From a virus, in IMG/VR virus record IMGVR_UViG_3300034068_000154, positions 1 through 28,602 of that record: a DNA stretch of 28,602 bases, one strand, 5' to 3'. Below are positions 3,195 through 28,222 of the stretch, piece after piece. Both the position numbers and the translations under genes were made by a program. The stretch's first letter is position 1, and each line of letters starts with the position of its first letter. The notes below the pieces were generated by a model, which did not search any database, was not told the DNA's origin, and worked only from the letters and a program-made list of their open reading frames with translations.

Positions 3195-6062
3195 ATGGAC
3201 ACAACAGAGTTCTTCGGCCGGGTCCTTCCGGACACCGGTTACTATGTCGCCACGGTCATAAATCCAGACAGACGCGCACAGAAATCGTATGAAACCATAG
3301 ACGCGCTGGCCAACGCCGTCATCCGGATCGACATCGCAGGTGGGAACGTCTACTACGCAATGTCCTCGTTCGTCGAAGCGGGCAACCGCAAACAGGCCAA
3401 CGTCGAGCTGACCAAGTCTCTATTCATCGACATCGACTGCGGCGAGGACAAGCCCTTCGCTGACCAGCGCGAGGGTGCCAAGGCCCTCAAGGTTTTCCTC
3501 AAGGCCAGTGGCCTGCCTCCCCCCATGATCGTCAATTCAGGCCGTGGTCTGCACGTGTACTGGCCACTGACCGAGGCGCTTGCGCCTACAGACTGGCAGC
3601 CTCTGGCTGATGCGCTCAAGGAGTGCGCCAAGCACCACGACTTCCAGATCGACGCGGCTGTCACAGCGGACAGCGCCCGGGTCCTGCGCCCCGTGGGCAC
3701 TCACAACCCGAAGAATGGGGCCGAGGTAGCGCTCATCAAGGACGCGCCAGACAACACTCCCGGCAGCATGCGGTCGGCTCTGGCCCAGTTCATGCACAAG
3801 GTCCCCGTCAAGCGGGGGCTCACTGCGCAGGCCAAGCCCGTGTCCAGCATCACGGCATCGCTTGGGTCCGGCACGGAGTACGAGCCTGCTGTTGCAGGGA
3901 ACATAATTGGTGGATGCGCTCAGGTCCGGTGGGCAGCGAACAACCAGACAGATGTGGAGGAGCCGTTCTGGTACGCGCTGCTCGGGATCGCCGCATTCTG
4001 TGACGACCCGGAGGGTACTGCCATTGCGTGGTCAGACCAGCACCCGGGCTACGACTACCCCAAGACTGTCCTGAAGATCGAGCAGTGGCGTGGCCGGGCG
4101 ACAGGCCCAACCACCTGTGCCAAGTTCAAGGACCTGCGCGAGAGCGGCTGCAAGAAGTGCCCCTACGCTGGCAAGATCACCACGCCCTGTCAGATCGGCC
4201 GCAAGATGGCCGAGGCTGAGGGCCCCGCCGCAGACGTCATCGACGTCGTCGCCAATGAAGTCCCACTGCCGCAAGGGTTCAAGCGCACCAAGGCCGGCGG
4301 CCTTGCCCAGACCATCGACGACACCGACATCGAGGTCGTGCCCTTCGACCTGTACCCTGTGAGCTACGGCAAGGACGAGGCTCTGGGCTACGAGGTAGTT
4401 CGGTTCCACTGGAAGCGGCCGCACAAGGGGTGGCAGGAGATCAAGTTCCGCCAAGCCTACCTCGCCGACGGGAACCGGGAGTTCCCTACTGCCATCGCTG
4501 ACCAAGGGATCGTGCTCCCGTTCAAAGGTCTGACCGAAAGGTTTCAGTACATGCTGCGTGCATACATGGATGAGCTCCGCAAACTCCGGACTACCACCAA
4601 CCTCTACACCTCGCTCGGGTGGAAGGAGGAGGACACGCTGTTCGTCATAGGCGACAAGCAGGTCAGGAAGGACGAAGCCGGGCAAGTCGTGGTGGAGGAT
4701 GTGGTCCTCTCCTCGGCAGTCCAGCGGGTCAGCACAGGGATGTATGGCACCAAGGGCACCCACGAGAAGTGGCTCAAGGTCACCAAGCTGATGGAGCTGG
4801 CCGGGCTCAACGCCCACATCTTCGCCATGGGTGTGTCCATGTCGGGCCCCCTCTACAACTTCACCGGGCTCAAGGGCGGCGTGCTCTCGCTCTACGGCCC
4901 GACGGGCAGCGGCAAGTCACTGGCCCAGTTGGCGATGCAGTCAGTGTGGGGCAACCCTGTCGAGCTGCACTTCCAGTCCAAGTACACACAGAACGCCCTG
5001 TTCACCCGACTGTCGTTCTACAATAACCTCCCCATGACCATCGACGAGACGACCATGATGCCCGACAAGGAGGTCGGCGACTTCATCTACGGCGTGACGC
5101 AGGGCCGGGACAAGAGTCGCCTCAACGCCCGCGTCGAGGAGCGTGATCCGCGCACATGGGCAGCACCTGTGACCCTCTCCACCAACCGCCCCATGAGCGG
5201 CAAACTGCTGTCGGCGACCTTCGAGACTGACGCCCAGATGGCGCGGATGTTGGAGCTGTCGCTGGAGAGCGCGGACATCTTTACCAAGAGCACCGATGTG
5301 GGGCGCAAGTTCTACGATACGGTGACCCGCAACTATGGCCACGTCGGCCTGCTGATCCTGCAGTGGCTGGTGGAGCTGGGCGCGGCCGCGATTGAGAAGC
5401 TGATCGCCGACCACATGGTTGCCTTCGAGAAGAAGTACAAGGTCAGGTTCAGCGGGGAGGAGCGGTACTGGGAGGTCATGGTCGTGCTGGCTGATCTGAT
5501 GAACAAGGTCGCCACAGAGCGTGGGTGGGTCACCTACGACTACGTCCCCGCCACAAACTACGCACTGGAGCAGGCCGGCATGACCCGCCGCAGCATCAGC
5601 GCATCCAAGATCGACGAGTTCGACCTCCTCGGTGAGTACCTCAACGAGATGCGGGCAGCGACCGTCATCGTGTCACACGTGGATGGCAGTGACCTGCCCA
5701 TCTATGACGCACTCAGGCTGCCACGAGCAGAGGTGCGCGTGCGCTTCGACCTCTACCGCAAGACCCTCAACGCCAAGAACGACCGTGGCATCCTGCTGCT
5801 CGACAGGGCGCACCTGCGCAAGTGGATGGCGAGCCGGGGCGGCGACTGGAAGAAGTTCGGCGACACCCTTGTGACGGACAACATCGACGCAACGCCGGCA
5901 TCCAAGAAGGCCATCCTCGGCCGTGGTATTCCAGAGCTCAGGTTACCGCAGACCTATGTGCTGGGGATTAACATCGCCCACGACCGACTCCGCACCCTCT
6001 TGGAGAACGAGGATGCTCGGCCGGAGGCGATGACGCTGGGCCAGCTGCGGACAGTGCCCTAG
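3195..6062 (+). CDS. Primase-helicase: PrimPol-like domain plus phage/DUF927-type ATPase
   Basis: A 955-residue replication enzyme. The N-terminal 180 residues resemble archaeo-eukaryotic/PrimPol-type primases: acidic pair D79/D81 in LFIDIDCG, SGRGLHVYW at 115-123, and DSARVLRPVGTHNPK at 159-173. Four cysteines, C308, C319, C322 and C332, form a likely zinc or Fe-S module. The C-terminal half is a P-loop ATPase of the DUF927-like kind: Walker A GPTGSGKS (K574), Walker B MTIDET (D617, E618) and sensor-like STNRPM (N664). It should prime and unwind DNA at the phage fork. A good ribosome site (GGTAGGG) precedes the ATG. The tail after residue 750 looks helical, with possible winged-helix DNA binding. 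The stop shares CTAG with the convergent late gene. Domain assignment is strong; the primase activity is inferred from motifs. Confidence 0.88.
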   Translation: MDTTEFFGRVLPDTGYYVATVINPDRRAQKSYETIDALANAVIRIDIAGGNVYYAMSSFVEAGNRKQANVELTKSLFIDIDCGEDKPFADQREGAKALKVFLKASGLPPPMIVNSGRGLHVYWPLTEALAPTDWQPLADALKECAKHHDFQIDAAVTADSARVLRPVGTHNPKNGAEVALIKDAPDNTPGSMRSALAQFMHKVPVKRGLTAQAKPVSSITASLGSGTEYEPAVAGNIIGGCAQVRWAANNQTDVEEPFWYALLGIAAFCDDPEGTAIAWSDQHPGYDYPKTVLKIEQWRGRATGPTTCAKFKDLRESGCKKCPYAGKITTPCQIGRKMAEAEGPAADVIDVVANEVPLPQGFKRTKAGGLAQTIDDTDIEVVPFDLYPVSYGKDEALGYEVVRFHWKRPHKGWQEIKFRQAYLADGNREFPTAIADQGIVLPFKGLTERFQYMLRAYMDELRKLRTTTNLYTSLGWKEEDTLFVIGDKQVRKDEAGQVVVEDVVLSSAVQRVSTGMYGTKGTHEKWLKVTKLMELAGLNAHIFAMGVSMSGPLYNFTGLKGGVLSLYGPTGSGKSLAQLAMQSVWGNPVELHFQSKYTQNALFTRLSFYNNLPMTIDETTMMPDKEVGDFIYGVTQGRDKSRLNARVEERDPRTWAAPVTLSTNRPMSGKLLSATFETDAQMARMLELSLESADIFTKSTDVGRKFYDTVTRNYGHVGLLILQWLVELGAAAIEKLIADHMVAFEKKYKVRFSGEERYWEVMVVLADLMNKVATERGWVTYDYVPATNYALEQAGMTRRSISASKIDEFDLLGEYLNEMRAATVIVSHVDGSDLPIYDALRLPRAEVRVRFDLYRKTLNAKNDRGILLLDRAHLRKWMASRGGDWKKFGDTLVTDNIDATPASKKAILGRGIPELRLPQTYVLGINIAHDRLRTLLENEDARPEAMTLGQLRTVP

Positions 6063-9000
6063 TCGTAGGATGCCAGTTGGTCGATGAGCTCGATTGCATC
6101 TTGGTTGGCCTTACCAGCGGACTGCATGAACCTCTGCTTGGCGGGCATCAGTGCCTGCTTCTTGAGGCGCTGGTAGTTCTTTTCGAAGTCTCTGATCTCC
6201 AACAGGGTGCCCTTCTCGACCGCGTTCCACTCTTTGACGGAGCGCCGGATGGACGCAGCCGTGACCCGGTCGCCGCGCATCTCGGCCTTGAGCAGCTGCG
6301 TCCTGAACTTGGCCACCACTTGTTTCTGGTAGTTCGTCTCGCGCTTGGCCAGACGGATCACCTCGTACTGCGCCGCCACAGAGCCGGGCGTGAAGCCAAG
6401 AATCCGGATCGCCAGCATGGTGGTGGTGAGGTCGTCCTCGATGACATAGCCCCGCTTGTCGATGACTGCTCCGGTCGAGGCGTAGGCCATCGTGTCACCG
6501 AGAGCGCGAAGCAGCGTGACAGGCCCCTCCCGCATGGCGTCCACCACCGTGGCTGTCTCGGAGAAGGGAGCGGCAACCAACTGAGAGCTACCCTTGAGCG
6601 TCCCTTCGAGGAACCCCCACGCGGGGCCGACCACTTCCTTGAAGGTCTGGAAGGGGTCTTGCCCCGGCAGCAGCGCTGCGGTCCCGGGGGCAAAATCACC
6701 CATGGAGAAGCGGCCTGCCACATCTGCGCCGATGACCTTGGTCAGCGCACCGTTCAGGATGTACGGTGACATCCCCGGCATGACCTCGTCGATCAGCCGT
6801 GCCGCCTCAAGACGGACGCTACCGGTGGTCATACCCAACCGTTGCATGAGCGTGTCGAGCACGTCCTCAAGGTCCTCTGCGAAGGGGAGACCCGCCAGAC
6901 CAGACAGGGCCAGCAGCGGGATCAGGAACGCCGCCTTGCCGTGCGCGTCGAGGCGGTTGAACGTCTGGATCGAGGTCGTCTGCCACACCCGGTACATGTA
7001 GAGGAACGACTGGAAGCCTGAGCGCCATGCGGCTGGGCGGTTGACCACGCCGTACTCGCCTAGCGTGACGCGCACCCCGTCTGTGGCAAAGGTGGACGCC
7101 TTGGCGTATATAGTCCGGCGCTGGGCGTCGGTCAGGTTCTCAATCTTCAACCCCTTTGCATCCAGCTGGCGCGTCACCTGCACACGGAATGCAGCCAATG
7201 CCGCAGCGCGACGGGTCGCCTGCTCAGACGAGATGTAGAAGAACATCCACTTGTCCAGCGCCTGCCGGACGGCAGGGTTCGTGGTGTAGTTGCGCGAGTG
7301 GCCCAGCAGGCTGTTAGCCTGTGCCGGGGTCAGCACACCGTTGCGGGTCTCGTTGGCGATGAACTCAGCCTCGAATTTGGTGACGCCCGGGTGCTCGCGC
7401 AGTCCGGTGGCGACTTGGTCCCAGTACCCTGCTGTGTGCATCTCCACTGCTTGTTTGGAGAACGACATCCCGCCGCTGCTGCCGACGTCAGACATGGCTT
7501 GAATATACTGCATGTAGGCATTCTTGAACCCGGCGCCGCCGCCGAACCCATTCTTCGCGTTGTACGACATGAGCCACGGGAGGAAGTTGGTGAAGGGGCC
7601 GACGTTGTTCATGATTGGCTGAGCCAGCGTACCGCCTAGCTGGACCGAACTGATCCAGCGGCGGAACCACGATGCGACTGGGCCCGACCCCCAGTCGGAC
7701 TCGTTGACATCCTTGTTGCCGTTCACGAATGCCATCAGGTCCTGCGCTTCTGACAGGTACTTGTTCCCGAGGTTGACCTCGACACCGTTCTTGGTTGTGA
7801 TCGTGTGCTTCATCTTGGCGGCGTAGTCGGTGTACTCCGCCTTAGCGAGGAACCGTGCAGCCTCGTTCGCATTCGGGTCCGCTTCCGCCGCATCATACGC
7901 TTTCTTGAGGGCGTCTAGCTTCTGCTTGTCGCCGAACCACAGCTTCTGGCTCTCCGAAAGCTTGATGTTCATCAGCCGGTCAATGAGCGGGCGCATCTGG
8001 ATTTTCGAGATCAGCGAGGCGCGACCGTCAACGTGTTGCGCGATGGCTTCCAGTGCAGTGACGCCGCCCTCGACTTGGTAGCCGGGGTTACCGGTCTGCT
8101 CCAGCCGCTTACGGGCCTTGGCATCCTGCGCCGACATGTCGATGACGATCTGCTCCAGCTTGGTCGGTGTGACGTTCAGCCCGTACTGGCGCAGCCCGCG
8201 CAAGAACTCGTTAATGTTCAGGTTCAGCGGGGTGGTCACACCCGTGACAGCAGCGCTTGCCTCGGCGCGAATGATGACACGCCGCTCCTTGAAGTCTATC
8301 TCACCCTTGCCCCGCACCTTCATCTTGTAGGTACGCACTGGTTTGCCGTCGACCGTGGCGATCTCCACGTCCGTCGCACCCTCGGGGATGTTCTCCGTGT
8401 CGGCGAACTGCCCATTCATCTGGTTGGCGAGCGTAGTCACTTCCTCCACCGACCCGGCGGTGCGGTAGACAGCCAAGCCCTTGTGTTCAGTATCCATTTG
8501 CACGAACGCGCCAGTCTCGGCGTCGAAGGCATTGACCCTGATTTGGAAGCCCTGCTGCTTGCGGACGATGGGAGTGTACCCCTGTACCAGCATCTTGCGG
8601 GCGCTCGTCTCCGCGCTTGTGAAGGACATCTCTGCAGCAGCAAACTCAGCGACTGCGTTTTGCGCAGCAAACTCATTCTCCGTGGTCCGGGTAATGCGCT
8701 GGCGGAAATCCACCAGCTGCCCGATGAAGTCGTCTACCCGCTTGCCCGTAAAGAACTTGCGGACGGCGGCCTCTTTCTTGGTGTCGAAGCCCTTGGCGAG
8801 GATGACTTCGTTCACGGCCTTGCTAAACCGTTCTGCCTCGCCCCGGCCGGTCTCTGTGGCGATGAGGTTGTCCTCCACCGTGACAGCACCGCCTGCGTAC
8901 AGGGCGTAGTAGAGTTCGGTCCAAGTGCGGAACATCGCCCTCTCTTGGGGGAGCAGCTCCTTCTCCTTGCCCGGGCCGGGGTCAGCCAGCATGTCCAGCA

Positions 9001-12000
9001 TGGACATCTCAGCGTTGCCCCTGTCCTCGATCAGGGCCTTGTACTGCGCCTTGACGAACTCAAGCTCGGTCTCCTCGAAGGCTTCGCGGCCTGCTTCGTA
9101 TGCCTTCCACGTGGAATGGTCCTTGTCCAGTTTGTCTGCGATGCCTTTGTAGCGGCTGTCGGCGGCAAGGATGGCTTTGGCTTCTGGCAACGACAGCCGC
9201 CCTGCGGCTTTGTACGCCTCAATTGCATCAGTGTTATCCTTCACCTCGCCGTCGATGATGGAGAACATACGCGTCGGCTTCTTTGCCTCGCGCAACTTCT
9301 TGAGGGTGGCCTCAACCTTAGCGTCGACCTTGCCCCGCGCGTTGTCCTGCTGGGTGTACATCAGATAACCGGCGGCGACCTGTTCGTCCGCGGTGATACC
9401 ACCCATGACGCGCACGCCAAGGATACGGACCTCGCGGTTCAGCGCGAACCGCATGATTTCGTCGGCCCGGTTACGGACCGCAGCCGCGATCTCTCCCGAC
9501 CGCATGATAATGCGGACAAGCGCGGACAGCCCGGCGTTCTCCTGCGCGCGGAACATGGTCAAGCTGAAGAACTTGTTGACGAACTTCTCCGTCCGCGCTG
9601 ACAGCTGTGACGAGGCCTCCTTTATGGCGGCAGTTGCCTGCTCCACGGACCGGGGAGGTCCACCAAACACGTCGTACACAAGCAGGTCAGTGCGCAAGTT
9701 GTCGCTCCTGAACCCTTCCTTGAACCGGCCAGTCGCGAGGCTGTCGGCTCCGGACTCGATGTCGTGGATGTCACGGAACACGCCACTGGCGGTGAACATG
9801 TTGTCCCGCTTACCGTTGCGGACATAGCGACGTGCGGTGCGGACGAGGTGGCGGACCATGTCGTCGCTGAACTTGAAGCCCAGAGCGTTTAGCCCGTTCT
9901 TCATGGCGGCGGCGACCCGGCGCAGGACTGACATGTCCAGCACAGCGGCGTAGTCCGCGAGGTATTCTTCAGTGGCCTCAGCGCGGCTCATGCCACGCAC
10001 CGCCACGGTCATATCCACGTTGGCCTTGATGAGCGAGTTGCTGTTGTACACAGCATCCATGACGCCCTCGAACTTGCTGGCGGGCATGATGGCCCGCAGC
10101 CCGTAGTGGCCCAGAGTCTCGTGGGCGAGGACGAAGTTCAGCTGCTGTTCGGTGGCAATGCGATCGGAGAAGACAATGACCTCCCCATCACCGAAGGAAT
10201 AGCCCATTGCGTCAGCGGTGTCGAAGTCGCCCGTACCGCGGGCTGCCTTGGCGCGGGCGTAGAGCGCGGGGTTCTTGGCTTTGAGGTCTGCTTGGTTGCG
10301 AGCGACCGTCATCTTCGGCGGCCGAGCGAGCTTTGACGCAAAGTTGCGCATCAGAAGCTGCACCCTACCGGTCGCCATGGGAGTGACGGGCTTGCCGTCG
10401 TAGCCGGTTGCGCCCACGAGGGTGTTGAAATCGGCGAGGGCATTTACACCTGAGGCTGGGGCACCTGCGACTGGGGCGGGAACGATTCGCCGAACACCGT
10501 CGACGGTGCCGAAGGTCGGCCGGAACTTTTCGTTGAAGTAGGCTTTGAGCGGGCGCCCGTCGTAGAGGGCGTTCGGGTGGTCCTTGGCGACCACACCGGC
10601 TAGCGTGCTAAACCGGTCACCCTGACTAAACGCGCCACCGGCGCCGGAGTTGTAGGCGCGGATCAGCGCGATCAGGTCTGCCACCGGCTTGGGCATGTCG
10701 ACCTGCTTGGCAGTCTCCTTGGTGCCGCGCTCGGTGACCAGCTCCGCAGCAAGTGCTGCCTCGGCGACGGCTTTCTGCTCTGGCGTGACCGCGCTATCGA
10801 GGATTTTCTGTGCGCGCTCGCGGATGTCTAGGACAATGTCGGTGTCGTTGATGATGGTCAGCAGGTCTTTGGCCGCCTGCAGTCGCTCATCCTTCATAGG
10901 GTCGGCCGTTTTGCCGAGGTCCTTCTCCATACCCGCCAGTTCCTCTACGGTCTCCTGATCGAGTACTGCCTGCTCATCCCTAACCGTTTGCCTTTTTTCT
11001 TTGAGTTTCGGTTCCGCGAAGACCGACGTGGCCCCCGGCAGTTTGCCCTCGCCCGCCATCTTGGCAACTGCGGCACCAACTGTCTTACCCGTCAGCTTGT
11101 CACCCTCGATTGGCGACTCGTCGGAGCGAAACACCCATACCTTGTCCTTTATGCGGACCTCGACGGCCTTCCCATTTGACAGCTCCACAACGTAGTAGTC
11201 GAAGTCCAACCCTGACGTCGCCTTGGTTACGCGGGTCGGCTCCTTGGCGGTTACCTCGGCCGCAGGGGTCTCTGCGGTGGTCTGTGCTTCGGGTTCGGGT
11301 GCGTCGATGTTGTAAGTGTCGATGGCTGCGCGAAACCAACCTAGCTTATCTTCAACCGGGATCAGTTTCTCAAGGTAGGTCATCTCTTCGGCGTTCGTGG
11401 CGGCGCTGTCCTTGGCTTCACCCTCGGGTATGGCGTCCCATTCTGCACGCGCTTTGTTTTGGGCTTCGAGGTAAGCACGAAGAGCCCCATCGTTATCGCG
11501 GTCTGCGGCCATCGCGAGGAACTCCTCGCTGGCGTTTGGGCGGCGAGTTTCGACCACGGGGGCGGCGGTCTTAGCGGGGGTCTGTACCTCGGGTGCGGGT
11601 GTGACCACTGGTGCCGCCTGCCCTGTCGGACCTTTGGACTTGGGCGCGGCTGCGGGCTTTTCCGTCGTCCCCGCTTTGAGCGTAGCCTCTTTGGGAGCGG
11701 CAGTTTTCTTTGCTGGTGGTGTGGTTTCAGGCGGCGGAGCCGTAACTTCGTCTACTGCTTTCAATACTTCATCGGGGTTAGCCTCGATAGCAGCATCGAC
11801 CCCAGCCATATCCTCCACCCCAAGGCGATCCATGAGGGATACGTTCTGTTCATCTGTGAGGCCAGCGACGCGCTCACGCACAGCAGCTTTCTTGACAGCA
11901 GTCTGCTGAGCCTTGGTCAGGGCCTTTGGTTTGGTCGGCTTCTTGGTAGCTGCTGCCTTCCGAGCCTTGGTCAATGGCTTCGGCCCTTGCATCTCACGGA

Positions 12001-14074
12001 GCGGCCCTTGCGCCTCACGGAGCGGTCCCTGTGCTTCGCGGAGTGGCCCTTGCGCCTCACGGAGTGGCCCTTGCGCCTCACGGAGTGGCCCTTGCGCCTC
12101 ACGGAGTGGTGCCGCGGGGACAGCACGCTGGTTGCCACGCAGCAACAAAGCGCCCGGCCTTGCCTCCACCACAGGAGCCATCATGGATACTGTGGGTGGG
12201 ACGTCCGTCCGCTGACGCTGGGTCAGTAGGGCTTGACCCATAGGGGTGCCGGCAGCCGGGGCAGGCTGCACGCGCTGACTAGGAGCTAGTACAAGTGGAC
12301 CGCCACCCACGCGCTCGCTAGGGCGCAGCACCAGCGGAGGCTGTGGAGTAGTCGCAGCAGGCTGCACGCGCTGACTAGGAGCTAGTACAAGTGGACCGCC
12401 ACCCACGCGCTCGCTAGGGCGCAGCACCAGCGGAGGCTGTGGAGCAGTCGCAGCAGGCTGCACGCGCTGGTCGGGGCGCAGTAGTAGCGCACCCATAGGG
12501 GTGCCGGCAGCCGGGGCAGGCTGCACGCGCTGGCCGGGAGCAAGCTGCAGGGGACCAAGGGTCGACCGCCACTGGTCAGCCAAGGCTTGTTCAGACTCAC
12601 CAAGCGAGGGGACCGCAGGACCGAGCGCGGCATCGGACTGCCAGTCGGCAGCAAGCGCAGTTTCTTCGGGGGACAAGTTTGGTACAACAGGACCGAGTCC
12701 CTGCACTTCGCCGAGAGGCGCAGGTGCTTCCTTCTCCGCCGACTGCCCCGTCGCAGTGGTGTTCAGGTCGACGGGTTTGGTCTGGTCTATTTCCGGCTGT
12801 GGCGCCGCAGGGCCGGGAGTTCCACGGAAGTTGGCGACGCCACCCATGCCGCCACCGAGGACTGCACCCACACCAGCCGCAACGAGGTAGTCGTCGCCAT
12901 AGGTCTCGGAGAGGTAGGGGGCCATCGCCTTCCAGTCGCCCGCAGCCCACTGGTCGCGCACCGTGGGATCGAACAGTGCCGTCTCGCCCAACGTCTGCAG
13001 GGTCTCTGTCAACCCCTCGCCAAAGCCAGTCAGGGCAGCGCCAGTCAGGCCATTCCTCAGCGCACTGCGCGCCGCCTTCTTGCCCGACTCCTCGACGGTC
13101 TGCCGAAGTGCCCGAGAGATGATCTTGCCAGACGCCGCAGAGATACCGAGGACGTCAAGTGCAGTGTTCGCGAATGCTCCGCCGAGGATTTCTGTCTTGA
13201 TCTCGGGGTCGTTGGGGTCGAGCCCGTTGCGGACTGCCGCGTCAAAGTAGCTGCTCACGTGCATAGGGAACGTGGACCCAGCGCCGCCCGCTGTGGCAGC
13301 AGCCCGGATACCTGTGGCGCCTGCGCCCAGTGCGCGGGCACCCAGACCGGCCAGTCCCCCTCCCGTTACGACTGAGGCAATAGTCGGGATGGCCTGCCAC
13401 GCGCCGTCAATGATCTTCTGCATGAGCGTGCTGTTCTCAGCGATCAACGCAGCGCGCAGTTGCTCGTTCTGGTCCTGCCCGAACACACCTTGCGCAAACT
13501 CGCGGACGGCCGGCCCCGCCTCTGTGGCCCCGCCAAACTCCATCAGCGTGCCAATGCCGCCGATCGTGCCTTCGGCGAGTTGCCGGGCACCCAGACCCAG
13601 CAACTCGCCTTTGCCCCGCCGCTCGGAGAACGACGCGATGTAGTCGTTGAACGACCCCTCAGGGAGCGCGGCCCACCCCTGCCCCTGCGGACGCGTGGTG
13701 TTGCCCGGTTGCTGGGCGGCTTGGAGCGCGGATGTGGCGTCATCCGCCTTGAACGCACGATCACCAGCGAACATCTCGTTCGTCGCTTGGTTGAAGTAGA
13801 CCGTTGCGGGGGGGCGGGCAGTTGCCCGCTGTTCCAGCGGCGGCAGCGACATAAGGCCCTCTACCTGCTGCGCAGCGCCCGCGCGCAAGCCACCGATCGA
13901 CTGCTCCGGCGACGGAGGGACCACGGTGCCAACCATGGCCGTATCAGCCCGGGTCGGGCGGAGCGACCCGAGGCCCGATTGCATAGCAGGGTCAGCATTG
14001 AACCCGGCGGAGGGTACTCGCAAGCCCAGACCCATGGCCGCGCTGACAGGGCGGGCGGTGAACATGTCTGCCAT
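6059..14074 (-). CDS. Giant polyvalent-type internal virion protein (2671 aa) with zincin domain
   Basis: This is the last gene of the late block and fills 8 kb. A short Gly/Ala-rich hydrophobic section lies near residues 225-265 and another near 392-414. A disordered, repetitive linker follows (about 510-830: QRVQPA/LRPSERVGGG repeats, then six PLREAQG units, then a KAxxKKPTKPKALTKAQQ basic patch). A metalloprotease-like core follows, with HETLGH at 1318-1323 and a probable third ligand in EEYLADYAA near 1369. Then comes a long helical region, and a C-terminal part with a hydrophobic segment near 2380 (FLIPLLALSGLAGLPF) and RW.S..QLGGTLAQPIMN-like sequence. Such zincins occur in phage and plasmid polyvalent proteins thought to enter the host with the DNA. 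It probably acts as an ejected internal protein, by analogy with T7 gp16 or N4 vRNAP. No polymerase motif was found. AAGGAAG precedes the ATG. Confidence 0.85.
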   Translation of the reverse strand: MADMFTARPVSAAMGLGLRVPSAGFNADPAMQSGLGSLRPTRADTAMVGTVVPPSPEQSIGGLRAGAAQQVEGLMSLPPLEQRATARPPATVYFNQATNEMFAGDRAFKADDATSALQAAQQPGNTTRPQGQGWAALPEGSFNDYIASFSERRGKGELLGLGARQLAEGTIGGIGTLMEFGGATEAGPAVREFAQGVFGQDQNEQLRAALIAENSTLMQKIIDGAWQAIPTIASVVTGGGLAGLGARALGAGATGIRAAATAGGAGSTFPMHVSSYFDAAVRNGLDPNDPEIKTEILGGAFANTALDVLGISAASGKIISRALRQTVEESGKKAARSALRNGLTGAALTGFGEGLTETLQTLGETALFDPTVRDQWAAGDWKAMAPYLSETYGDDYLVAAGVGAVLGGGMGGVANFRGTPGPAAPQPEIDQTKPVDLNTTATGQSAEKEAPAPLGEVQGLGPVVPNLSPEETALAADWQSDAALGPAVPSLGESEQALADQWRSTLGPLQLAPGQRVQPAPAAGTPMGALLLRPDQRVQPAATAPQPPLVLRPSERVGGGPLVLAPSQRVQPAATTPQPPLVLRPSERVGGGPLVLAPSQRVQPAPAAGTPMGQALLTQRQRTDVPPTVSMMAPVVEARPGALLLRGNQRAVPAAPLREAQGPLREAQGPLREAQGPLREAQGPLREAQGPLREMQGPKPLTKARKAAATKKPTKPKALTKAQQTAVKKAAVRERVAGLTDEQNVSLMDRLGVEDMAGVDAAIEANPDEVLKAVDEVTAPPPETTPPAKKTAAPKEATLKAGTTEKPAAAPKSKGPTGQAAPVVTPAPEVQTPAKTAAPVVETRRPNASEEFLAMAADRDNDGALRAYLEAQNKARAEWDAIPEGEAKDSAATNAEEMTYLEKLIPVEDKLGWFRAAIDTYNIDAPEPEAQTTAETPAAEVTAKEPTRVTKATSGLDFDYYVVELSNGKAVEVRIKDKVWVFRSDESPIEGDKLTGKTVGAAVAKMAGEGKLPGATSVFAEPKLKEKRQTVRDEQAVLDQETVEELAGMEKDLGKTADPMKDERLQAAKDLLTIINDTDIVLDIRERAQKILDSAVTPEQKAVAEAALAAELVTERGTKETAKQVDMPKPVADLIALIRAYNSGAGGAFSQGDRFSTLAGVVAKDHPNALYDGRPLKAYFNEKFRPTFGTVDGVRRIVPAPVAGAPASGVNALADFNTLVGATGYDGKPVTPMATGRVQLLMRNFASKLARPPKMTVARNQADLKAKNPALYARAKAARGTGDFDTADAMGYSFGDGEVIVFSDRIATEQQLNFVLAHETLGHYGLRAIMPASKFEGVMDAVYNSNSLIKANVDMTVAVRGMSRAEATEEYLADYAAVLDMSVLRRVAAAMKNGLNALGFKFSDDMVRHLVRTARRYVRNGKRDNMFTASGVFRDIHDIESGADSLATGRFKEGFRSDNLRTDLLVYDVFGGPPRSVEQATAAIKEASSQLSARTEKFVNKFFSLTMFRAQENAGLSALVRIIMRSGEIAAAVRNRADEIMRFALNREVRILGVRVMGGITADEQVAAGYLMYTQQDNARGKVDAKVEATLKKLREAKKPTRMFSIIDGEVKDNTDAIEAYKAAGRLSLPEAKAILAADSRYKGIADKLDKDHSTWKAYEAGREAFEETELEFVKAQYKALIEDRGNAEMSMLDMLADPGPGKEKELLPQERAMFRTWTELYYALYAGGAVTVEDNLIATETGRGEAERFSKAVNEVILAKGFDTKKEAAVRKFFTGKRVDDFIGQLVDFRQRITRTTENEFAAQNAVAEFAAAEMSFTSAETSARKMLVQGYTPIVRKQQGFQIRVNAFDAETGAFVQMDTEHKGLAVYRTAGSVEEVTTLANQMNGQFADTENIPEGATDVEIATVDGKPVRTYKMKVRGKGEIDFKERRVIIRAEASAAVTGVTTPLNLNINEFLRGLRQYGLNVTPTKLEQIVIDMSAQDAKARKRLEQTGNPGYQVEGGVTALEAIAQHVDGRASLISKIQMRPLIDRLMNIKLSESQKLWFGDKQKLDALKKAYDAAEADPNANEAARFLAKAEYTDYAAKMKHTITTKNGVEVNLGNKYLSEAQDLMAFVNGNKDVNESDWGSGPVASWFRRWISSVQLGGTLAQPIMNNVGPFTNFLPWLMSYNAKNGFGGGAGFKNAYMQYIQAMSDVGSSGGMSFSKQAVEMHTAGYWDQVATGLREHPGVTKFEAEFIANETRNGVLTPAQANSLLGHSRNYTTNPAVRQALDKWMFFYISSEQATRRAAALAAFRVQVTRQLDAKGLKIENLTDAQRRTIYAKASTFATDGVRVTLGEYGVVNRPAAWRSGFQSFLYMYRVWQTTSIQTFNRLDAHGKAAFLIPLLALSGLAGLPFAEDLEDVLDTLMQRLGMTTGSVRLEAARLIDEVMPGMSPYILNGALTKVIGADVAGRFSMGDFAPGTAALLPGQDPFQTFKEVVGPAWGFLEGTLKGSSQLVAAPFSETATVVDAMREGPVTLLRALGDTMAYASTGAVIDKRGYVIEDDLTTTMLAIRILGFTPGSVAAQYEVIRLAKRETNYQKQVVAKFRTQLLKAEMRGDRVTAASIRRSVKEWNAVEKGTLLEIRDFEKNYQRLKKQALMPAKQRFMQSAGKANQDAIELIDQLASYD
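11982..12107 (-). repeat. Six tandem 21-bp units encoding PLREAQG
   Basis: Six head-to-tail 21-base units lie inside the giant gene. Three successive units (12045-12107) are identical, and the others differ at a few positions. Each encodes the heptad PLREAQG (the last is PLREMQG), about residues 656-698. The unit length is a multiple of three, so copy number can change without a frameshift. Confidence 0.95.
12236..12533 (-). repeat. 96-bp tandem repeat and flanking copies encoding QRVQPA / RPSERVGGG modules
   Basis: A 96-base unit starts at 12261 and recurs at 12357 with one visible base change. A third, partial copy begins at 12453. A separate block of about 40 bases containing CCCATAGGGGTGCCGGCAGC flanks the array at 12236 and again at 12491. 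The encoded 32-residue module is Pro/Val/Arg-rich (APSQRVQPA, LRPSERVGGGPLV). This looks like recent segmental duplication within a flexible linker. Confidence 0.9.
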
Positions 14075-22734: not shown

Positions 22735-24090
22735 TTACTCCCACATAATGTTGATAGTGCCTGCATCAAACGTGTCGGTGCCGTTGGTGGTGGTGATGCG
22801 GAGGCGGTCAAGCGTGCCGCCGAGGGCAATGAAGCCGCCCGCCATTAGCGCCTGATTTCCGGTTGGCGATCCACCAGCAAAGGATGCCACCCAAGTGTTG
22901 CCAGTGATGTTTTGAAGGGTCATGATGCCACTCAACACATCTGCGGCCAGTGTGCTCAAGCCGAAAAGGAAGCCAACGGTTGAGCTAGTGCTTCCCGATG
23001 CAGCAGTAGCCAGCGCACCACCGCCGCCAGAGTAACCAGTTGTGGTAATCGATCCCGCGCCGATCTGAACAATCTTGCTAGCCGTACCTGCACTGACGCC
23101 CGCAATCATCACCGTCACACGCTTCGCCCAAGACGGGATGCCCGTAAAATCAAAGGACGTTCCCGACGTGGATACAACAGAAGTGCCAAGCACGGGGCGT
23201 GCTGCCTGTGCCACCCGCAACGGCGTCATGACCTTGGTGTTGTCCGTCCCGGCTTCCGCTTCGGCCTGTGATGCAAGATCAGCCGCTACAGTCGGATTGC
23301 CTGACACGCCATCGCCATTCGTGACTGCAATACCTGTTCCAGCCGTCACCGTGCGTGCGGCAGCCGTCCCGGCGCCCGTGCGGGCAATCATGCCGCTTGA
23401 AGACAACCCAGCAATGGCCGTCAGATCAGCATCAGATTCCTGTTTTGCGTTAAGTTGCGTCTGAATTGCGGATGTTACGCCGTCCGTGAAGTTCAACTCT
23501 GCGGTCGACGCAGTCACCCCGTCGAGGAGGTTGATCTCTGCGGTCGACGCAGTCACCCCGTCGAGGATGTTCAACTCTGCAGCCGTGGATGTCACGCCGT
23601 CGAGGATGTTTAGCTCAGCTGTTGATGCAGTCACCCCGTCGAGGAGGTTGATCTCTGCGGTCGACGCAGTCACCCCGTCGAGGAGGTTGATCTCTGCGGT
23701 CGACGCAGTCACCCCGTCGAGGATGTTCAGCTCGGCGGCTGAGGCGGTAACACTGAATTGGCCGAGACCCACCGCGTCGGCTGCATCTTGGGCCGTGTCG
23801 ACCATGCTGGCGGCAGTCACCCGCATCTCGATGGTAGACCCCGCGGCAAAGGTCCGGGCCGTCGTACCCTCGGCGCCGCGTGTTACGGTCAGCGTGTCCG
23901 TCACCCGGGCAGTGGCCTGCACGATCTCGTAGTTGCCAGCTGCGTCCTCGATGGTGGCGTAGAAGTACTCGCCCGCGCCGAGCGTGGGGAACCGGGCACC
24001 ATGACCAACGGGCAGGAGGATAGTCGTGCTCGACGACAGTACCTCTGTGCGGAGCGTCGACTGGACGTTGTTCTTCAGCTTAACTGTCAT
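22735..24090 (-). CDS. Tail fibre protein with seven 13-residue repeats (451 aa)
   Basis: The N-terminal 95 residues form the common fibre-anchor pattern (TTILLPVGHGARFP; VTRGAEGTTARTFAAGS). Residues 116-206 are seven tandem 13-residue units of the ASTAEINLLDGVT type, likely a trimeric beta or coiled shaft. A linker (QTQLNAKQESDADLTAIAG) follows. The C-terminal domain begins at SFDFTGIPSWAKRVTVMIAG and ends in GTINIMWE, a beta-sandwich-like receptor-binding tip seen in many siphovirus and podovirus fibres. It should mediate host attachment. It is the second fibre-like protein here, with the other at 26591-27697. It is separated by seven bases from the adaptor gene upstream. Confidence 0.85.
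   Translation of the reverse strand: MTVKLKNNVQSTLRTEVLSSSTTILLPVGHGARFPTLGAGEYFYATIEDAAGNYEIVQATARVTDTLTVTRGAEGTTARTFAAGSTIEMRVTAASMVDTAQDAADAVGLGQFSVTASAAELNILDGVTASTAEINLLDGVTASTAEINLLDGVTASTAELNILDGVTSTAAELNILDGVTASTAEINLLDGVTASTAELNFTDGVTSAIQTQLNAKQESDADLTAIAGLSSSGMIARTGAGTAAARTVTAGTGIAVTNGDGVSGNPTVAADLASQAEAEAGTDNTKVMTPLRVAQAARPVLGTSVVSTSGTSFDFTGIPSWAKRVTVMIAGVSAGTASKIVQIGAGSITTTGYSGGGGALATAASGSTSSTVGFLFGLSTLAADVLSGIMTLQNITGNTWVASFAGGSPTGNQALMAGGFIALGGTLDRLRITTTNGTDTFDAGTINIMWE
23473..23745 (-). repeat. Seven tandem 39-bp fibre repeats
   Basis: Seven consecutive 39-base units, each encoding 13 residues ending DGVT. Several units are nearly identical at DNA level (core GTCACCCCGTCGAGGAGGTT), while the outer ones have drifted. 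In-frame unit length permits fibre-length variation by recombination. Confidence 0.92.
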
Positions 24091-24097
24091 GACACCC

Positions 24098-24868
24098 TCA
24101 CGCGAAATTCGGGAACCGCACGGTCACGGTGCCGCGTGTGTTCATCAGGTTAGCCCGGGCCCTGCGCTCAGTGAGCGTAAACAGCGCCTGCTTGGCGTGG
24201 TAGGACGCAAGCTCGCGGTCGCTCCATGCCACACCGGGCATGACGAGAAGCTGCTGCAGCGCGGAGTGCACGATCGGCTCTTCCAACTCGTTCAGGATCG
24301 TCTGATCCATCCCGGCCGCCGTCCGCGTCGGCTTGAGCGCGTAGAACATCCGTACCATGTACGTGTCCTCACCATCAGGCAGCGGCAGCACGAGGTATCG
24401 ATCGGGCGTCAACTGCGTCATGGACCGCGGCTGCGCAGCGGCGGCGACGATAGCATCAGGCAAAACGAACGCAGAGCCCGGGTTGTATTCAGTCTCGTCG
24501 TAGACGTCTGAACCAGTGTAGCTGGGCGGTGTAAGGCTCCACACCACTGACGGGTCTTCGCCGCTGTAAATGTCCGCCCACTCCGGGTAGGCGTCCAGTG
24601 CCTGCTCCAGCGTCAGCACCTCAAGGGGGCTGTCATTCACCAGCATGCGGAAGACCACGTGAACTTCGGTGTCCACAGGCTTCTGGTACTCGTAGTCGAA
24701 GACCCCGGGCAGCAGCTGGAACTTGGGCTGGGCATAGCGCCATGCCAGCGTGCGCTCGCACACGCGGATCGCCGCGTCGCGAATGTGCTGGACGACCAGA
24801 GGCTGCGGGCAGCCGGGTACCGACGGTAGCACTTTGGGTAGTACGTCTGTAAATGCGCGCGTGGGCAT
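24098..24868 (-). CDS. Head-tail adaptor / tail-tube protein (256 aa)
   Basis: Soluble mixed alpha/beta protein. Its opening, FTDVLPKVLPSVPGCPQPLV, followed by IRDAAIRVCERTLAWRY, and the beta patterns FQLLPGVFDYEY and DRYLVLPLPDGEDTYMVRMF are familiar from podovirus genes that lie between capsid and tail genes. The helix near the end (SALQQLLVMPGVAWSDRELA) matches adaptor-type folds. It is coupled to the DUF6682-like gene upstream (shared base, TGATG). It probably forms part of the connector or tubular tail, comparable in role to T7 gp11. The role is inferred from order and pattern. Confidence 0.75.
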   Translation of the reverse strand: MPTRAFTDVLPKVLPSVPGCPQPLVVQHIRDAAIRVCERTLAWRYAQPKFQLLPGVFDYEYQKPVDTEVHVVFRMLVNDSPLEVLTLEQALDAYPEWADIYSGEDPSVVWSLTPPSYTGSDVYDETEYNPGSAFVLPDAIVAAAAQPRSMTQLTPDRYLVLPLPDGEDTYMVRMFYALKPTRTAAGMDQTILNELEEPIVHSALQQLLVMPGVAWSDRELASYHAKQALFTLTERRARANLMNTRGTVTVRFPNFA

Positions 24869-25512
24869 CAGATCACCTCGCCCCTATCGAATCCGGCTTG
24901 CTTCGTGTCGGTAATCTTGCGGCTCTGGAGCCCAGCGCCCAGTGCCTGCATGAAGCTGTCGGAGAACAGCTTGGCCCGGCCAGACTGGACATGCTCGTCG
25001 TCGATCGACTCAGCGAGGTAGACCACGCCGTCCACCAAGACTGGGAAGTAGACGTCCGTGAGAACGTCAATCGCGGCGTCGAGGGCATAGCTCGGTGGGG
25101 TCTTCGCATACTCACCGACAAGAATTACCCCCGCCGCAGGGCGGGGGTACAGGAAGTAGCGGTCGGGGTTCTTCACATGGCGCATGAAGTTGACCGGTTG
25201 CCCGGCCGCCTCCTGCATCCAGCCGGGGTAGTTCCGGTTCATGGTCTCGCGGTCGACCTCGGTGACCGCGTTGCCGTTCTTGATCTGAAAGATGTCGATC
25301 AGCCGAATCGCGTCTGACGGTAGAACCTGTGCCGCGGAGCCGGCCGTTGTCGCAATGTCCACGATGTCAGAAAAGAGATCGGGGCGCAGGATTGCCATAC
25401 GCTTCAGTGTCTGGTTGACGTACGAAAGCAGCACCGAATCGCTGTAGCGATATGGCGCGGTCTGGTCCTGCACAAGGCGCCGAGCCTCGGTTATGACATC
25501 TGCGGGCGTCAT
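24868..25512 (-). CDS. DUF6682-like connector protein (214 aa)
   Basis: Residues 1-45 are helical and typical of connector proteins (ITEARRLVQDQTAPYRYSD, then LLSYVNQTLKRMAILRPDLF). The middle has beta strands with VLPSDAIRLIDIFQI, and FLYPRPAAG recurs in this family; later helices complete a four-helix-bundle-like adaptor. From memory the pattern matches Pfam DUF6682, found upstream of a partner like the 256-aa protein. The start overlaps the previous stop (ATGA) and the end overlaps the partner start. Its likely role is portal-proximal head-completion or neck protein. Confidence 0.78.
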   Translation of the reverse strand: MTPADVITEARRLVQDQTAPYRYSDSVLLSYVNQTLKRMAILRPDLFSDIVDIATTAGSAAQVLPSDAIRLIDIFQIKNGNAVTEVDRETMNRNYPGWMQEAAGQPVNFMRHVKNPDRYFLYPRPAAGVILVGEYAKTPPSYALDAAIDVLTDVYFPVLVDGVVYLAESIDDEHVQSGRAKLFSDSFMQALGAGLQSRKITDTKQAGFDRGEVI

Positions 25513-25754
25513 TCAGGCAAGTTCCTCGATGCGTCTGCCGACAGTTCCGCCGAACTATACACCGGTTCGGTCAGGTTGTCATCAGCCACGAGCTCAATCT
25601 TCTTCGCGCGCTTCTTGGCCTTCTCCACGGACGGCGTCATGAAGCGCTCCGGGTACGCTTCCTGCTCGGTCACTTCCTCGCACAGAGGGTTCTTGGCGAG
25701 CACCGGGTGCCATTCGTAGATGAACCCGTCGTTTTTATTACGAAGATACTGCAT
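25509..25754 (-). CDS. Small phage protein (81 aa), unknown
   Basis: I prefer the ATG at 25754, which forms TGATG with the previous stop, over the GTG one codon upstream. The protein begins MQYLRNKNDGFIYEWHPVLA, continues with an acidic stretch (CEEVTEQEAYPERFM), then a lysine-rich helix (EKAKKRAKKIELVADD), and ends Ser/Ala/Glu-rich. The Y-x-W-HPxLAKNP pattern recurs in short genes next to connector genes in other phages. It has no signal peptide, and its function is not known. Confidence 0.7.
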   Translation of the reverse strand: MQYLRNKNDGFIYEWHPVLAKNPLCEEVTEQEAYPERFMTPSVEKAKKRAKKIELVADDNLTEPVYSSAELSADASRNLPE

Positions 25755-25933
25755 CACTTCTTCCCTTTTTTGGTCATTCCTGCCTCGCTCATAGCGATAG
25801 CGATGGCCTGTTTCCGGTTCTTCACAACGGGTGCTTTCTTCGGACCCTTGGGGTCAATGCCGCCGTGCAGGGTGCCGCGTTTGTACTCACCCATGACTTT
25901 GGCAACTTTGGCTGTCTGTGCTTTGGTTGGCAT
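25754..25933 (-). CDS. DUF6496-like micro-protein (59 aa)
   Basis: Below usual ORF cut-offs, but well framed: the ATG at 25933 has AGAGGAAG upstream inside the end of the preceding gene, and the stop is joined to the next start as TGATG. The product contains KVAKVMGEYKRGTLHGG, then a Pro/Lys linker, then VVKNRKQAIAIAMSEAG, and a basic tail. KNRKQAIAIA(M/L)SEA is the core of the family I recall as DUF6496. It is strongly basic and probably binds nucleic acid or an acidic virion surface (inference). It is the fourth, most downstream member of a run of tiny basic genes. Confidence 0.78.
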   Translation of the reverse strand: MPTKAQTAKVAKVMGEYKRGTLHGGIDPKGPKKAPVVKNRKQAIAIAMSEAGMTKKGKK

Positions 25934-25934
25934 A

Positions 25935-26165
25935 TCACTTCCTCTTGCCTGACGGTGACACCGGCCACGACTTGCGCGCGGGGCCGGTCTTCTTGGCCGC
26001 CATGGTGCGCTTCTCAGCGGTGGTCATCTTGGCAGCAGCAGCGGCCGGGCGACAGGCTGGGTAGGCGCGTGAGGACTTTTCAGACCCAGAGCGCCCGCAC
26101 TCCTTGCCGGTCTTGGTGTCGACCCACTTCTCGCCGAACCACTTGCCAAGCCCGCCCTTGCTCAT
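25935..26165 (-). CDS. GGLxxWFxEKWV micro-protein (76 aa), DUF5872-like
   Basis: It opens MSKGGLGKWFGEKWVDTKTG, then CGRSGS, a basic stretch and YPACRP (C23 and C38), then an Ala/Lys-rich tail ending in KRK. The two-Cys CGR...YPxCxP arrangement with the WF..KWV opening recurs in phages and some large eukaryotic viruses; from memory it is filed as DUF5872, not verified. Strong positive charge and a possible metal or redox pair are visible. Its start overlaps the previous stop (ATGA) and it ends one base before the next gene. Confidence 0.78.
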   Translation of the reverse strand: MSKGGLGKWFGEKWVDTKTGKECGRSGSEKSSRAYPACRPAAAAAKMTTAEKRTMAAKKTGPARKSWPVSPSGKRK

Positions 26166-26329
26166 TTCTTCACCCGGTTATCCGGGCCGCTCCAGCCGCC
26201 GCCGCGCTTCTTGTACTCCTTGGCAGCCCACGCGTTCGAGTAGGCACTCGGGTGCGTATCGTACTTTTTCTTAGCCTCCGCCTGCACACGGGACCAGAGT
26301 GCTGGGTTGGTGGGCTTGGGGCTGGCCAT
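26162..26329 (-). CDS. 55-aa basic micro-protein (HPSAYSNAWAAKEYKKRGG type)
   Basis: A 56-codon gene below usual cut-offs. The product is MASPKPTNPALWSRVQAEAK, then KYDTHPSAYSNAWAAKEYKK and RGGGW with a basic end. The block PSAYxNxWxxKEYKxRGG is a recurring signature in small phage proteins. It starts one base after the DUF6321-like stop and its stop overlaps the next start (ATGA), supporting a real coupled gene. Tyr/Trp/Lys-rich helices suggest binding to nucleic acid or to other virion parts. Function unknown. Confidence 0.76.
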   Translation of the reverse strand: MASPKPTNPALWSRVQAEAKKKYDTHPSAYSNAWAAKEYKKRGGGWSGPDNRVKK

Positions 26330-26330
26330 G

Positions 26331-26591
26331 TCAGCAGTTCCATGCTTTGAGGGATAGCGCCTTCCGCGTCGGCTTGCCCTTCTCGTCCTTCATCGGACCG
26401 GGCATCCCAGACATGCGGGCGCAAAACGACTTCCGGCGACCCTCGTCTTCCTTGGTCTTGGGGTTCGGGGCCGGCGGCTTCAGCCCGGGCTTACCCGGGT
26501 TGGCCTTGTTGTAGGACGCCCGGCCGGCCGCATTGAGGCCACCCTTCGGGTCCTTTCCCTCTTTTCGGGTCCATGCAGGAGTCTTGGCCAT
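26331..26591 (-). CDS. DUF6321-like basic micro-protein (86 aa)
   Basis: It begins MAKTPAWTRKEGKDPKGGLN and continues AAGRASYNKANPGKPGLKPP, then KSFCARMSGMPGPM and ends LKAWNC. This order (TPAWxRKEGKxPKGGLN, RKSFCARMxGM, LxAWNC) matches the family I recall as DUF6321, widespread in phages but of unknown role. Its net charge is clearly positive, and two Cys residues, one of them terminal, are present. The start overlaps the stop of the fibre gene by one base (TAATG). It is the first of the four-gene micro-protein run. Confidence 0.85.
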   Translation of the reverse strand: MAKTPAWTRKEGKDPKGGLNAAGRASYNKANPGKPGLKPPAPNPKTKEDEGRRKSFCARMSGMPGPMKDEKGKPTRKALSLKAWNC

Positions 26592-27697
26592 TACGCGATC
26601 CTCTCAACCGAAAGAACTGTAGACGGGATTGCGGGGATCGCAGGCGGGCCTGTGACTGCGGCAGTGTGGTCGAGTGTAACTAGCGTGCTCTCAGGGAGCC
26701 AGAAGATTTGCGCGTACTGTCCCGCGGTCACGGTCAGGTAGAACATGATCTGAAAGAACCCCACGCCGCCATCGCTGGTCTTGGGGACGACGATCCGCGT
26801 AGCGGAGCGTGGCACGTTGGTGCCGTTTACCGACAGCCATATCGTGATGTCATGGTCAGACGTGTCCGTGTTCTGCAGCTGCATGTTCGGTGCCACCATG
26901 TAGGTGCCAGCTACGGCGAACGTCAGGCGCGTCAGGTTTGTACCGTCGGTAACCATCGTGATGCCGGAGCCGGCTATGTCGGTTGTGCCGAACTTCATCG
27001 CCGTGGGCACCGTGGTGCTGCCGGTCTGATCCGTGATGTCAGAGAAAGCCGCGAAGGCCCGATCGGTGACCGTGCTGAACGGCACCTTGCCGCTTAGGAT
27101 GTCGACATTGGTGATGTTCACCTCGCCGGTGCCCTTGGGCGTGATATTGACGTCGATGTCGGTGTCAGTGCCGTCGGCACCCAGCGTGTTGCCGGTAAGG
27201 TTGACCCCTGCGGCCGCGGCGCTGGTGGCCAGCGTCGCCGACTCGACCAGTGTGAGGCCGGAGAAGCTGCCGGTGATCGTGACGCCTGAGAGCGTGCCGC
27301 CTGTAATGGCGACCGCGTTGGCGTTCTGCGTGGCCATAGTGCCGAGTCCGAGGTTGGTCCGCGCACCCGAGGCGTCAGACGCCCCTGTGCCGCCGTCAGC
27401 GACGGCGAGGTCTGTGATCCCTGCGATGGTGCCGCCGGTGATGGCCACCTTGGCTATGCTCACTGAGCCCGTGCCGTTGGGCGCGAGGACGAGGTTCCCG
27501 TTCGTGTCGAGCGTGCTGATCGTGTTACCGTTCAGCTGGATGTTATCCACAGAGGCGGAGCCGGTGCTGAGCTTCAGCGCCGTGGCTGTACCTGTCGCAC
27601 TTAGGACGGATTTCTCCGCAGCGTCAGGGCCGCCATCGATGTGCAGCAGCTGGGGAAAGCTGTCCTTGATCTTCTCGTTGGTAAGATTTGTGGGCAC
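26591..27697 (-). CDS. Tail fibre / decoration protein with C1q-like tip (368 aa)
   Basis: The GTG start at 27697 is preceded by GGGGGA. The N-terminal 50 residues, with FPQLLHIDGG and ATALKLSTGSASVDN, form a common phage fibre or decoration anchor. A repetitive middle follows: NGTGSVSIAKV, ITGGTIAGI, then VADGGTGASDASGARTNLGL, a classic fibre motif, and GTLSGVTITGS. The C-terminal 150 residues are a beta jelly-roll-like tip (FAVAGTYMVAPNMQLQNTD through LPESTLVTLDHTAAV, ending PAIPSTVLSVERI), similar in pattern to C1q/TNF-like trimeric domains. It could bind a host receptor or decorate the capsid. It follows a strong stem-loop, so it may have its own transcription level. Confidence 0.78.
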   Translation of the reverse strand: MPTNLTNEKIKDSFPQLLHIDGGPDAAEKSVLSATGTATALKLSTGSASVDNIQLNGNTISTLDTNGNLVLAPNGTGSVSIAKVAITGGTIAGITDLAVADGGTGASDASGARTNLGLGTMATQNANAVAITGGTLSGVTITGSFSGLTLVESATLATSAAAAGVNLTGNTLGADGTDTDIDVNITPKGTGEVNITNVDILSGKVPFSTVTDRAFAAFSDITDQTGSTTVPTAMKFGTTDIAGSGITMVTDGTNLTRLTFAVAGTYMVAPNMQLQNTDTSDHDITIWLSVNGTNVPRSATRIVVPKTSDGGVGFFQIMFYLTVTAGQYAQIFWLPESTLVTLDHTAAVTGPPAIPAIPSTVLSVERIA

Positions 27698-27745: not shown

Positions 27746-28222
27746 TTAGACAAGGACGTAATCGAAGATCACGTCGATGTGGGTCGCGGTCGTGACGCTG
27801 CTGCCGGTCTTGCCAACGGTGACGGCCGTGCTCACGTCATTGGCAGTGTAGGACGCACCATCCGCGAGGACGGCCGCGCCTGTGCCGCCGTCAGTGAGCA
27901 CCGTGCTCCGTGTCAGGTTAGCCTGAGCAAAAGCGACGAGCTTCGCAGCAGTGGTCTGGGTACCGATGATGTCCACTGTGGTCACTGCACCAGCGGCACC
28001 GCCAATGGCGATCACCTTGGCGCCGACCATGCGAATGGACTTGCCAGTTACGGCCGGGACTAGCGTAGCCCCAGCATTCACCTCAGCGATCGTAAACCGC
28101 TGACGCACGTTCATGGCCACACCGGCTGCAACGACCGATCCGGTAACGACCAGCGACTGCAGAGTTGCATTGCCGCTGTTGATTCGCACGTTGTCCTGCG
28201 AGATGCCTGTATAAACACCCAT
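27746..28222 (-). CDS. Small virion/decoration-type protein (158 aa)
   Basis: A Gly/Ala/Thr/Val-rich beta protein: MGVYTGISQDNVRINSGNAT at the start, then VRQRFTIAEVNAGATLVPAV, strands VGAKVIAIGGAAGAVTTVD, and HIDVIFDYVLV at the end. The strongest ribosome site in the window (GAAAGGAGA at 28237-28229) precedes the ATG, indicating high expression. Flanking stem-loops isolate it as a separate transcript unit. Composition and position suggest a capsid decoration or head-fibre protein; I do not recognise a named family. Confidence 0.72.
   Translation of the reverse strand: MGVYTGISQDNVRINSGNATLQSLVVTGSVVAAGVAMNVRQRFTIAEVNAGATLVPAVTGKSIRMVGAKVIAIGGAAGAVTTVDIIGTQTTAAKLVAFAQANLTRSTVLTDGGTGAAVLADGASYTANDVSTAVTVGKTGSSVTTATHIDVIFDYVLV

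Follow-up and report, generated by a model that had tools for sequence, protein, structure and literature searches.

The stretch of DNA analyzed here (the window: 28,602 nucleotides, IMG/VR virus record IMGVR_UViG_3300034068_000154) carries on its minus strand four consecutive small genes, termed O1 to O4, which lie between a fibre-like gene and the gene of a head-tail adaptor. The features of this region are as follows.

27746..28222 (-), 158-aa protein, located between the major capsid protein and the fibre gene in the window lineage
26591..27697 (-), fibre-like protein directly upstream of O1, with weak tail-fibre PHROG matches (E 7e-4)
26331..26591 (-), O1, 86 aa, DUF6321 module (SFCAR...WNC), basic
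26162..26329 (-), O2, 55 aa, N-terminal half of DUF5872 (PSAYxNAWAxKEYKKRGG; alignment A1), basic
25935..26165 (-), O3, 76 aa, C-terminal half of DUF5872 (GLGKWFxEKWVDxKTGKxCGR...YPACRP; alignment A2), basic
25754..25933 (-), O4, 59 aa, DUF6496 (VMGEYKxGTLHxG...RKQAIAIAxSEAG; alignment A4), basic
25509..25757 (-), O5, 82 aa, pI 5.0, an acidic co-conserved neighbor and not a basic module
24868..25512 (-), SU10-type head-tail adaptor (PF24175, E 8.1e-24; phrog_399)
24098..24868 (-), virion structural protein (phrog_437, E 7.5e-31)

Base 26591 belongs both to the fibre gene and to O1 (TAATG), single-base gaps separate O1 from O2 and O3 from O4, and O2 and O3 overlap by four bases (ATGA). Coordinates, sizes, overlaps and gaps of the four minus-strand frames, as given in an earlier note on this DNA, were reproduced exactly on recheck. 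Four-base overlaps also occur at O4/O5 and O5/adaptor, and since coupling thus runs on through O5 and the adaptor, it reflects the style of the operon and is no special mark of the quartet. Reading frames of O1 to O4 are kept in relatives, with pN/pS values (0.18, 0.20, 0.19, and 0.18) similar to that of the adaptor gene (0.18), indicating selection as proteins; O1 to O4 are real genes under purifying selection. All four products are basic, as the earlier note had remarked, with computed pI values of 10.3, 10.1, 10.5, and 10.6, net charges of +7 to +13, and a combined lysine and arginine content of 22-25%, whereas the flanking proteins have pI values of 4.0-5.0 with a single exception of 8.1.

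Profile searches assigned O1 to DUF6321 over the full model (PF19846, positions 1-72/72; Pfam E 1.6e-26, 93.2 bits versus a gathering score of 28.5; PHROG match phrog_4689) and O4 to DUF6496 (PF20106, E 3.5e-10, 40.5 bits versus a gathering score of 24). O2 and O3 matched different parts of one and the same family, DUF5872 (PF19197): positions 1-38/116 for O2 (E 9.3e-7, 29.9 bits) and 53-100/116 for O3 (E 4.6e-6, 27.6 bits), each above the cut-off of 27.5. No single protein of the window matches the whole 116-position profile, which is split over the two genes. The earlier note had allotted each protein to a family of its own and thereby divided one family in two. Judged from these profile matches, DUF5872, one protein elsewhere, is present here as two coupled genes, a first sign of linkage. 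Searches of NCBIfam yielded no match, nor did PADLOC-DB, a collection of anti-phage defence families, at E<=1. Relatives of O1 carrying DUF6321 were found in 509 of 50,697 deposited phage records, and phages harboring conserved modules infect cyanobacteria, Pelagibacter, Roseobacter, and Vibrio; a scan of cellular genomes with O2 returned one small alphaproteobacterial MAG contig. Conservation in alignment A1 was too low for a profile scan. In the literature searched, the DUF names turned up in one paper, there as a table entry only. The GenBank records of CRP-207 and DSL-LC04 omit or shorten O3, although the gene is intact in sequence (L003:4690-4914, L004:8179-8433).

Cysteines occur in O1 (SFCAR and WNC) and in O3 (CGR and YPAC), the motifs that had been pointed out before, and are absent from O2 and O4. 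Among relatives of O1 both cysteines are present in 166 sequences and both replaced in 17, whereas a single cysteine never occurs; this pattern suggests that the two residues form a pair, either a disulfide or a metal site, and the 17 relatives lacking them may constitute one clade. An AlphaFold2 model of O1 (pLDDT 88) comprises three helices (21-30, 47-61, and 76-83), yielded no match at E<=1 in a PDB fold search, and in BFVD retrieved mainly DUF6321 proteins. DUF6321-like folds were also encountered in BFVD within uncultured-phage proteins named after ferritin/DPS and AAA domains (A0A6J5N5R9 and A0A6J5R4H4). The O3 model is poor (pLDDT 68), and its weak BFVD matches were therefore kept out of the main evidence. 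Sequence searches of the PDB produced no match at E<=0.2 for any of the four proteins.

The placement of the quartet between fibre and connector genes, proposed earlier, is borne out by gene order in a locus of the same lineage (L095), whose O3 is 97% identical to that of the window. Here, genes for a portal-like protein, a 329-aa protein, an HNH nuclease, and the major capsid protein (phrog_267, E 3e-60) are followed by two 158-aa genes, the fibre gene, O1 to O4, O5, and the adaptor, placing the quartet in the capsid-to-adaptor stretch of the head block. The second gene after the major capsid protein in this locus is a homolog of the 158-aa protein at 27746..28222, which is possibly a decoration protein. 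O5 has no Pfam or PHROG match; it was seen again in 61 loci, most of which belong to the window lineage. Comparable positions are found in other phages: O1, O2, and an unannotated O3 lie between cement and adaptor genes in DSL-LC04; in P-SCSP2 the interval from scaffold to capsid gene holds an O2 variant together with O3 and O1; and O1 lies between scaffold and capsid in KBS-P-1A, between capsid and tail tube in P-SCSP1u, and shortly after the capsid gene in HTVC103P. Elsewhere on the minus strand, the window encodes a tail-fibre-like protein in which LLDGVTASTAEIN-type units repeat (22735-24090) and, at 6059-14074, an ORF of 2671 aa that is internally repetitive (PLREAQG; LRPSERVGGGPLVLAPSQRVQPA).

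Loci were then fetched from IMG/VR with each of O1 to O4 as seed (238 of 305 sequences kept after removal of near-duplicates), and the families were mapped on them by iterative profiles. A foreign-lineage subset was defined by loci without a detected homolog of the fibre, capsid-side, O5, adaptor, and phrog_437 genes of the window. Within this subset, all 26 O2 matches in 66 O1-seeded loci fall within 4 kb of O1, the 4-10 kb bins being empty, and all 28 O1 matches in 53 O4-seeded loci lie within 2 kb; the partner is always encoded on the same strand. Under uniform placement the corresponding probabilities are ~6e-7 (O2 near O1) and ~2e-14 (O1 near O4), a rough measure, given the kinship among loci and the general clustering of head genes. 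Chance-level co-occurrence in profile searches was what the earlier note had named as evidence against its proposal of proteins acting as a set; co-occurrence was found above chance in lineages that share no flanking gene. Module orders vary (O1-O4, O4-O1, O1-O2, O3-O1, O2-O1, O1-O4-O2-O3), while O2 and O3 directly adjoin in 97 of 97 pairs. The notion of a fixed quartet did not hold, as the complete O1-O2-O3-O4 order occurs in 17 of 79 window-lineage loci and other small basic families recur alongside. The quartet is thus a local selection from a broader stock of such families.

Several such families were noted within 3 kb of the seeds (loci L010-L304), namely a RGDGCCxKGKTKG type (42 loci), a RFGQQGV...SFKARH...YWADKVKW type (36 loci), and GLYANIHAKRKR (22 loci), LKNWTKQKWRTKSGKPS...GERYLPE (19 loci), and AAGRPYPNLVDNM (18 loci) types. 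The SFKARH family (alignment A5, 28 loci) matches DUF5754 with a best E of 3e-4 and, weakly, DUF6321 (0.011); on these matches, it is a possible link between small proteins of phages and of algal viruses.

Modules that are separate genes in the window are joined in single reading frames elsewhere. O4 and O2 are fused in L118, L121, and L145-L149 (E about 1e-16 and 1e-27), and one 337-aa protein of S-BM3 (P0001) combines an O3-like part, O2 (4e-22), a Cys module (CWKGY...VPNC), and O1 (2e-28). Related strings of the T4-GC119 type occur in the T4-like cyanophages P-SSM2, S-SM1, S-TIM4, S-B05, Syn2, S-RIM8, WH25-B, P-RSM1, P-SSM4, and S-PRM1, mostly near gp16/gp17, that of P-SSM4 being devoid of an O2-like part. 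In most strings the relationship is remote, with hhalign values of E 0.06 (probability 1%) for the O3-like part and 0.008 (5%) for the Cys-rich O2 variant; O3 of DSL-LC04 bridges the window O3 (4e-9) to the S-BM3 and L217 forms (1e-7 and 4e-7). Solved structures gave no useful sequence match for the string protein either. Pfam itself unites O2 and O3 in DUF5872. The fusions of O4 with O2 and of O3-like part, O2, and O1 together make a network that touches all four families, and O4, which was not found in T4-like strings, appears to be tied in through O2 only. Fusions linking all four families, together with co-location in unrelated lineages, thus back the earlier suggestion that the proteins act as a set. 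In one locus (L122:8994-10001, +), an intein-like insert of ~250 aa splits O2 within its most conserved motif (YP^C...VTGN^SAYAN), a reading based on end residues and a CTPGH block (profile support weak, Hint E 0.11; no NCBIfam match).

Published virion proteomes include string homologs. The virion table of S-CREM2 lists ORF137 (gp137; 108049-109521) with four unique peptides and 4.1% coverage (PMC10665884), and a DUF6321 match at 109273-109518 lies within this ORF, at the C-terminus of the protein. We regard this detection as weak; contaminants are possible in CsCl-purified virions, a point that the authors raise for other proteins. For S-SCSM1, 45 virion proteins were identified by mass spectrometry (PMC9602691), and ORF29 (S-SCSM1_29, 517 aa), comprising O3-like, O2-like, and Cys modules and O1, bears the record label "virion protein", which, given the naming in the record and the count in the paper, is taken to mean detection by mass spectrometry. 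Both detections are at the level of the whole protein and are not assigned to individual modules. The cryo-EM text on P-SCSP1u, which carries DUF6321, names, as far as searched, portal-tail parts and no mass spectrometry, weak evidence either way, and the searched main text of the S-SZBM1 and S-CREM1 papers does not list the relevant ORF. The Syn9 record gives no more than the name gp114. The suggestion of the earlier note that these proteins are packaged is accordingly backed for string homologs by the published mass spectrometry of S-CREM2 and S-SCSM1 and not for the window phage, in whose own lineage virion presence would follow by analogy.

Glu sites like those cut by the T4 prohead protease are enriched at junctions within the strings. 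T4 gp21 cuts after L/I-x-E (PMC9026906). We inspected 15-residue windows upstream of string-module cores (n=58) and compared them with 2000 within-window shuffles. A relaxed site, [LIVMF]xE/[AGSK] (the slash marks the cut), precedes 37 of 58 modules versus 7.2% of other windows, with a shuffle mean of 8 and none of 2000 shuffles reaching 37, counts that are suggestive only, as string proteins are related and not independent and the same motif (LNE/K) is also found inside the DUF6321 module of O1. The strict T4 form, [LI]xE/[AGS], occurs at 8 of 58 junctions versus 1.7. Per 100 residues, relaxed sites number 2.1-2.3 in protease and scaffold (gp21/gp22) of S-SM1 and 0-0.7 in other tested proteins. 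F-x-x-F...E stretches precede 10 of 66 string modules. The starts that a cut would leave, such as GAAWTKK or ASPAWQRK, resemble in sequence the free-standing start AKTPAWTRK after removal of methionine, and O1 to O4 of the window begin directly at the module. String junctions may therefore be cut by the prohead protease, with the reservation that the specificity of T4 gp21 may not be that of the cyanophage enzyme.

This analysis directly observes genes under selection, their co-location, their fusions, and the enrichment at string junctions. As the pieces recur together, shuffled or fused, and the string is found in purified particles, we consider it reasonably probable that O1 to O4 are packaged, interchangeable basic head modules that stand as separate genes in the window and are concatenated in T4-like phages. 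In the proposed scheme, O1 to O4 would be expressed late, alongside the capsid genes, and would travel in the virion, most likely in its interior next to the DNA, with which they might be in contact. The window phage would produce four separately translated, coupled proteins, whereas in T4-like cyanophages DUF6321, both DUF5872 halves, and extra Cys-rich modules make up a single precursor whose gene lies close to those for the terminase. This precursor probably enters the prohead, where the prohead protease may cut between modules, and the free-standing versions of the window would presumably behave alike. The earlier note had named DNA condensation, capsid binding, and host silencing, which all stay candidates on the present evidence. 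Candidate roles within the particle are DNA organization, assembly, or action after ejection.

The last two of these roles correspond to distinct explanations. The modules could be effectors that the head carries and that, once ejected, work on the host and not on the phage DNA, in anti-restriction or take-over, like T4 IPI*/Alt. The same detections in S-CREM2 and S-SCSM1 would fit, small, variable, mix-and-match sets would suit diverse hosts, and T4 internal proteins offer a precedent (PMC9026906). The strong conservation of the modules across phages of cyanobacteria, Pelagibacter, Roseobacter, and Vibrio is nevertheless unlike that of host-specific effectors, all four proteins are basic and devoid of an enzymatic signature, and PADLOC-DB gave no match, although this library covers counter-defence poorly; we judge this explanation unlikely. 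Assembly or surface factors, such as scaffold partners, cement, or connector-binding proteins on shell or neck that have no DNA role, would likewise account for the virion detections and for a position between major capsid/decoration genes and the adaptor, or between scaffold and capsid. Their uniform strong positive charge is unlike that of adjoining structural proteins, and lineages differ freely in gene order and in which modules they have, which is unusual for stoichiometric shell parts, leaving this alternative improbable as well.

A lack of any joint function, with unrelated small genes gathering in a permissive stretch after the capsid gene, would be in line with the clustering of other small families at this place and with the complete quartet being restricted to a minority of loci. 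It is hard to reconcile with fusions that unite all four families, with O2 and O3 adjoining in every one of 97 pairs, and with strict same-strand co-location where no flanking gene is common, and we disfavor it as highly improbable.

Packaged basic head modules have their nearest working models in T4 internal proteins and in basic proteins of chloroviruses, an analogy that claims no membership of O1 to O4 in the T4 group. The T4 proteins IPI, IPII, and IPIII and the core proteins gp22, gp67, and gp68, matured by gp21 (PMC9026906), are likewise small head-associated proteins of a T4-type head, and string homologs recall the T4 targeting and cleavage pattern with L/I-x-E-like Glu sites and F-x-x-F...E stretches. 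Unlike the T4 internal proteins, O1 to O4, for which no sequence relation and, in the case of O1, no solved-fold match was detected, belong to families that are free-standing in non-T4 phages, shuffled in order, fused into strings, and equipped with Cys pairs. Chlorovirus A278L and A282L, with their "PBCV-1 specific basic adaptor domain" (PMC3281028), resemble them in being basic domains, some of them fused, from virions of aquatic dsDNA viruses, but they represent other families, and DNA association was demonstrated for the chlorovirus proteins (PMC3281028), whereas O1 to O4 are known from sequence. O1 to O4 do show the protamine- or histone-like trait of being small and strongly basic, a sequence property. 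A report on the algal virus CpV-BQ1 lists both DUF5872 and DUF5754 (PMC12085832); as compared with this listing, DUF5872 in the window is split into two coupled genes of a tailed phage.

Module families are common in aquatic phages, yet their annotation is nearly always hypothetical. Fusion, co-location, and virion detection bring several so far separate domains of unknown function together in a single system open to testing, in which the contrast between split and fused forms predicts exact cleavage sites. Beyond the window, we put forward as a tentative and rather doubtful generalization that aquatic tailed phages might draw on one large pool of exchangeable, small basic head modules for coating or organizing packaged DNA, encoded either as separate mini-genes or, in T4-like phages, as a protease-processed precursor, and partly common to algal giant viruses (DUF5872 and DUF5754). 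The chlorovirus paper states that evidence is lacking for basic proteins contributing much to the neutralization of phage DNA (PMC3281028), a view that would change if the modules neutralize packaged DNA. If true, this would amount to protein-based genome packing, a kind of chemistry that tailed phages are not believed to have.
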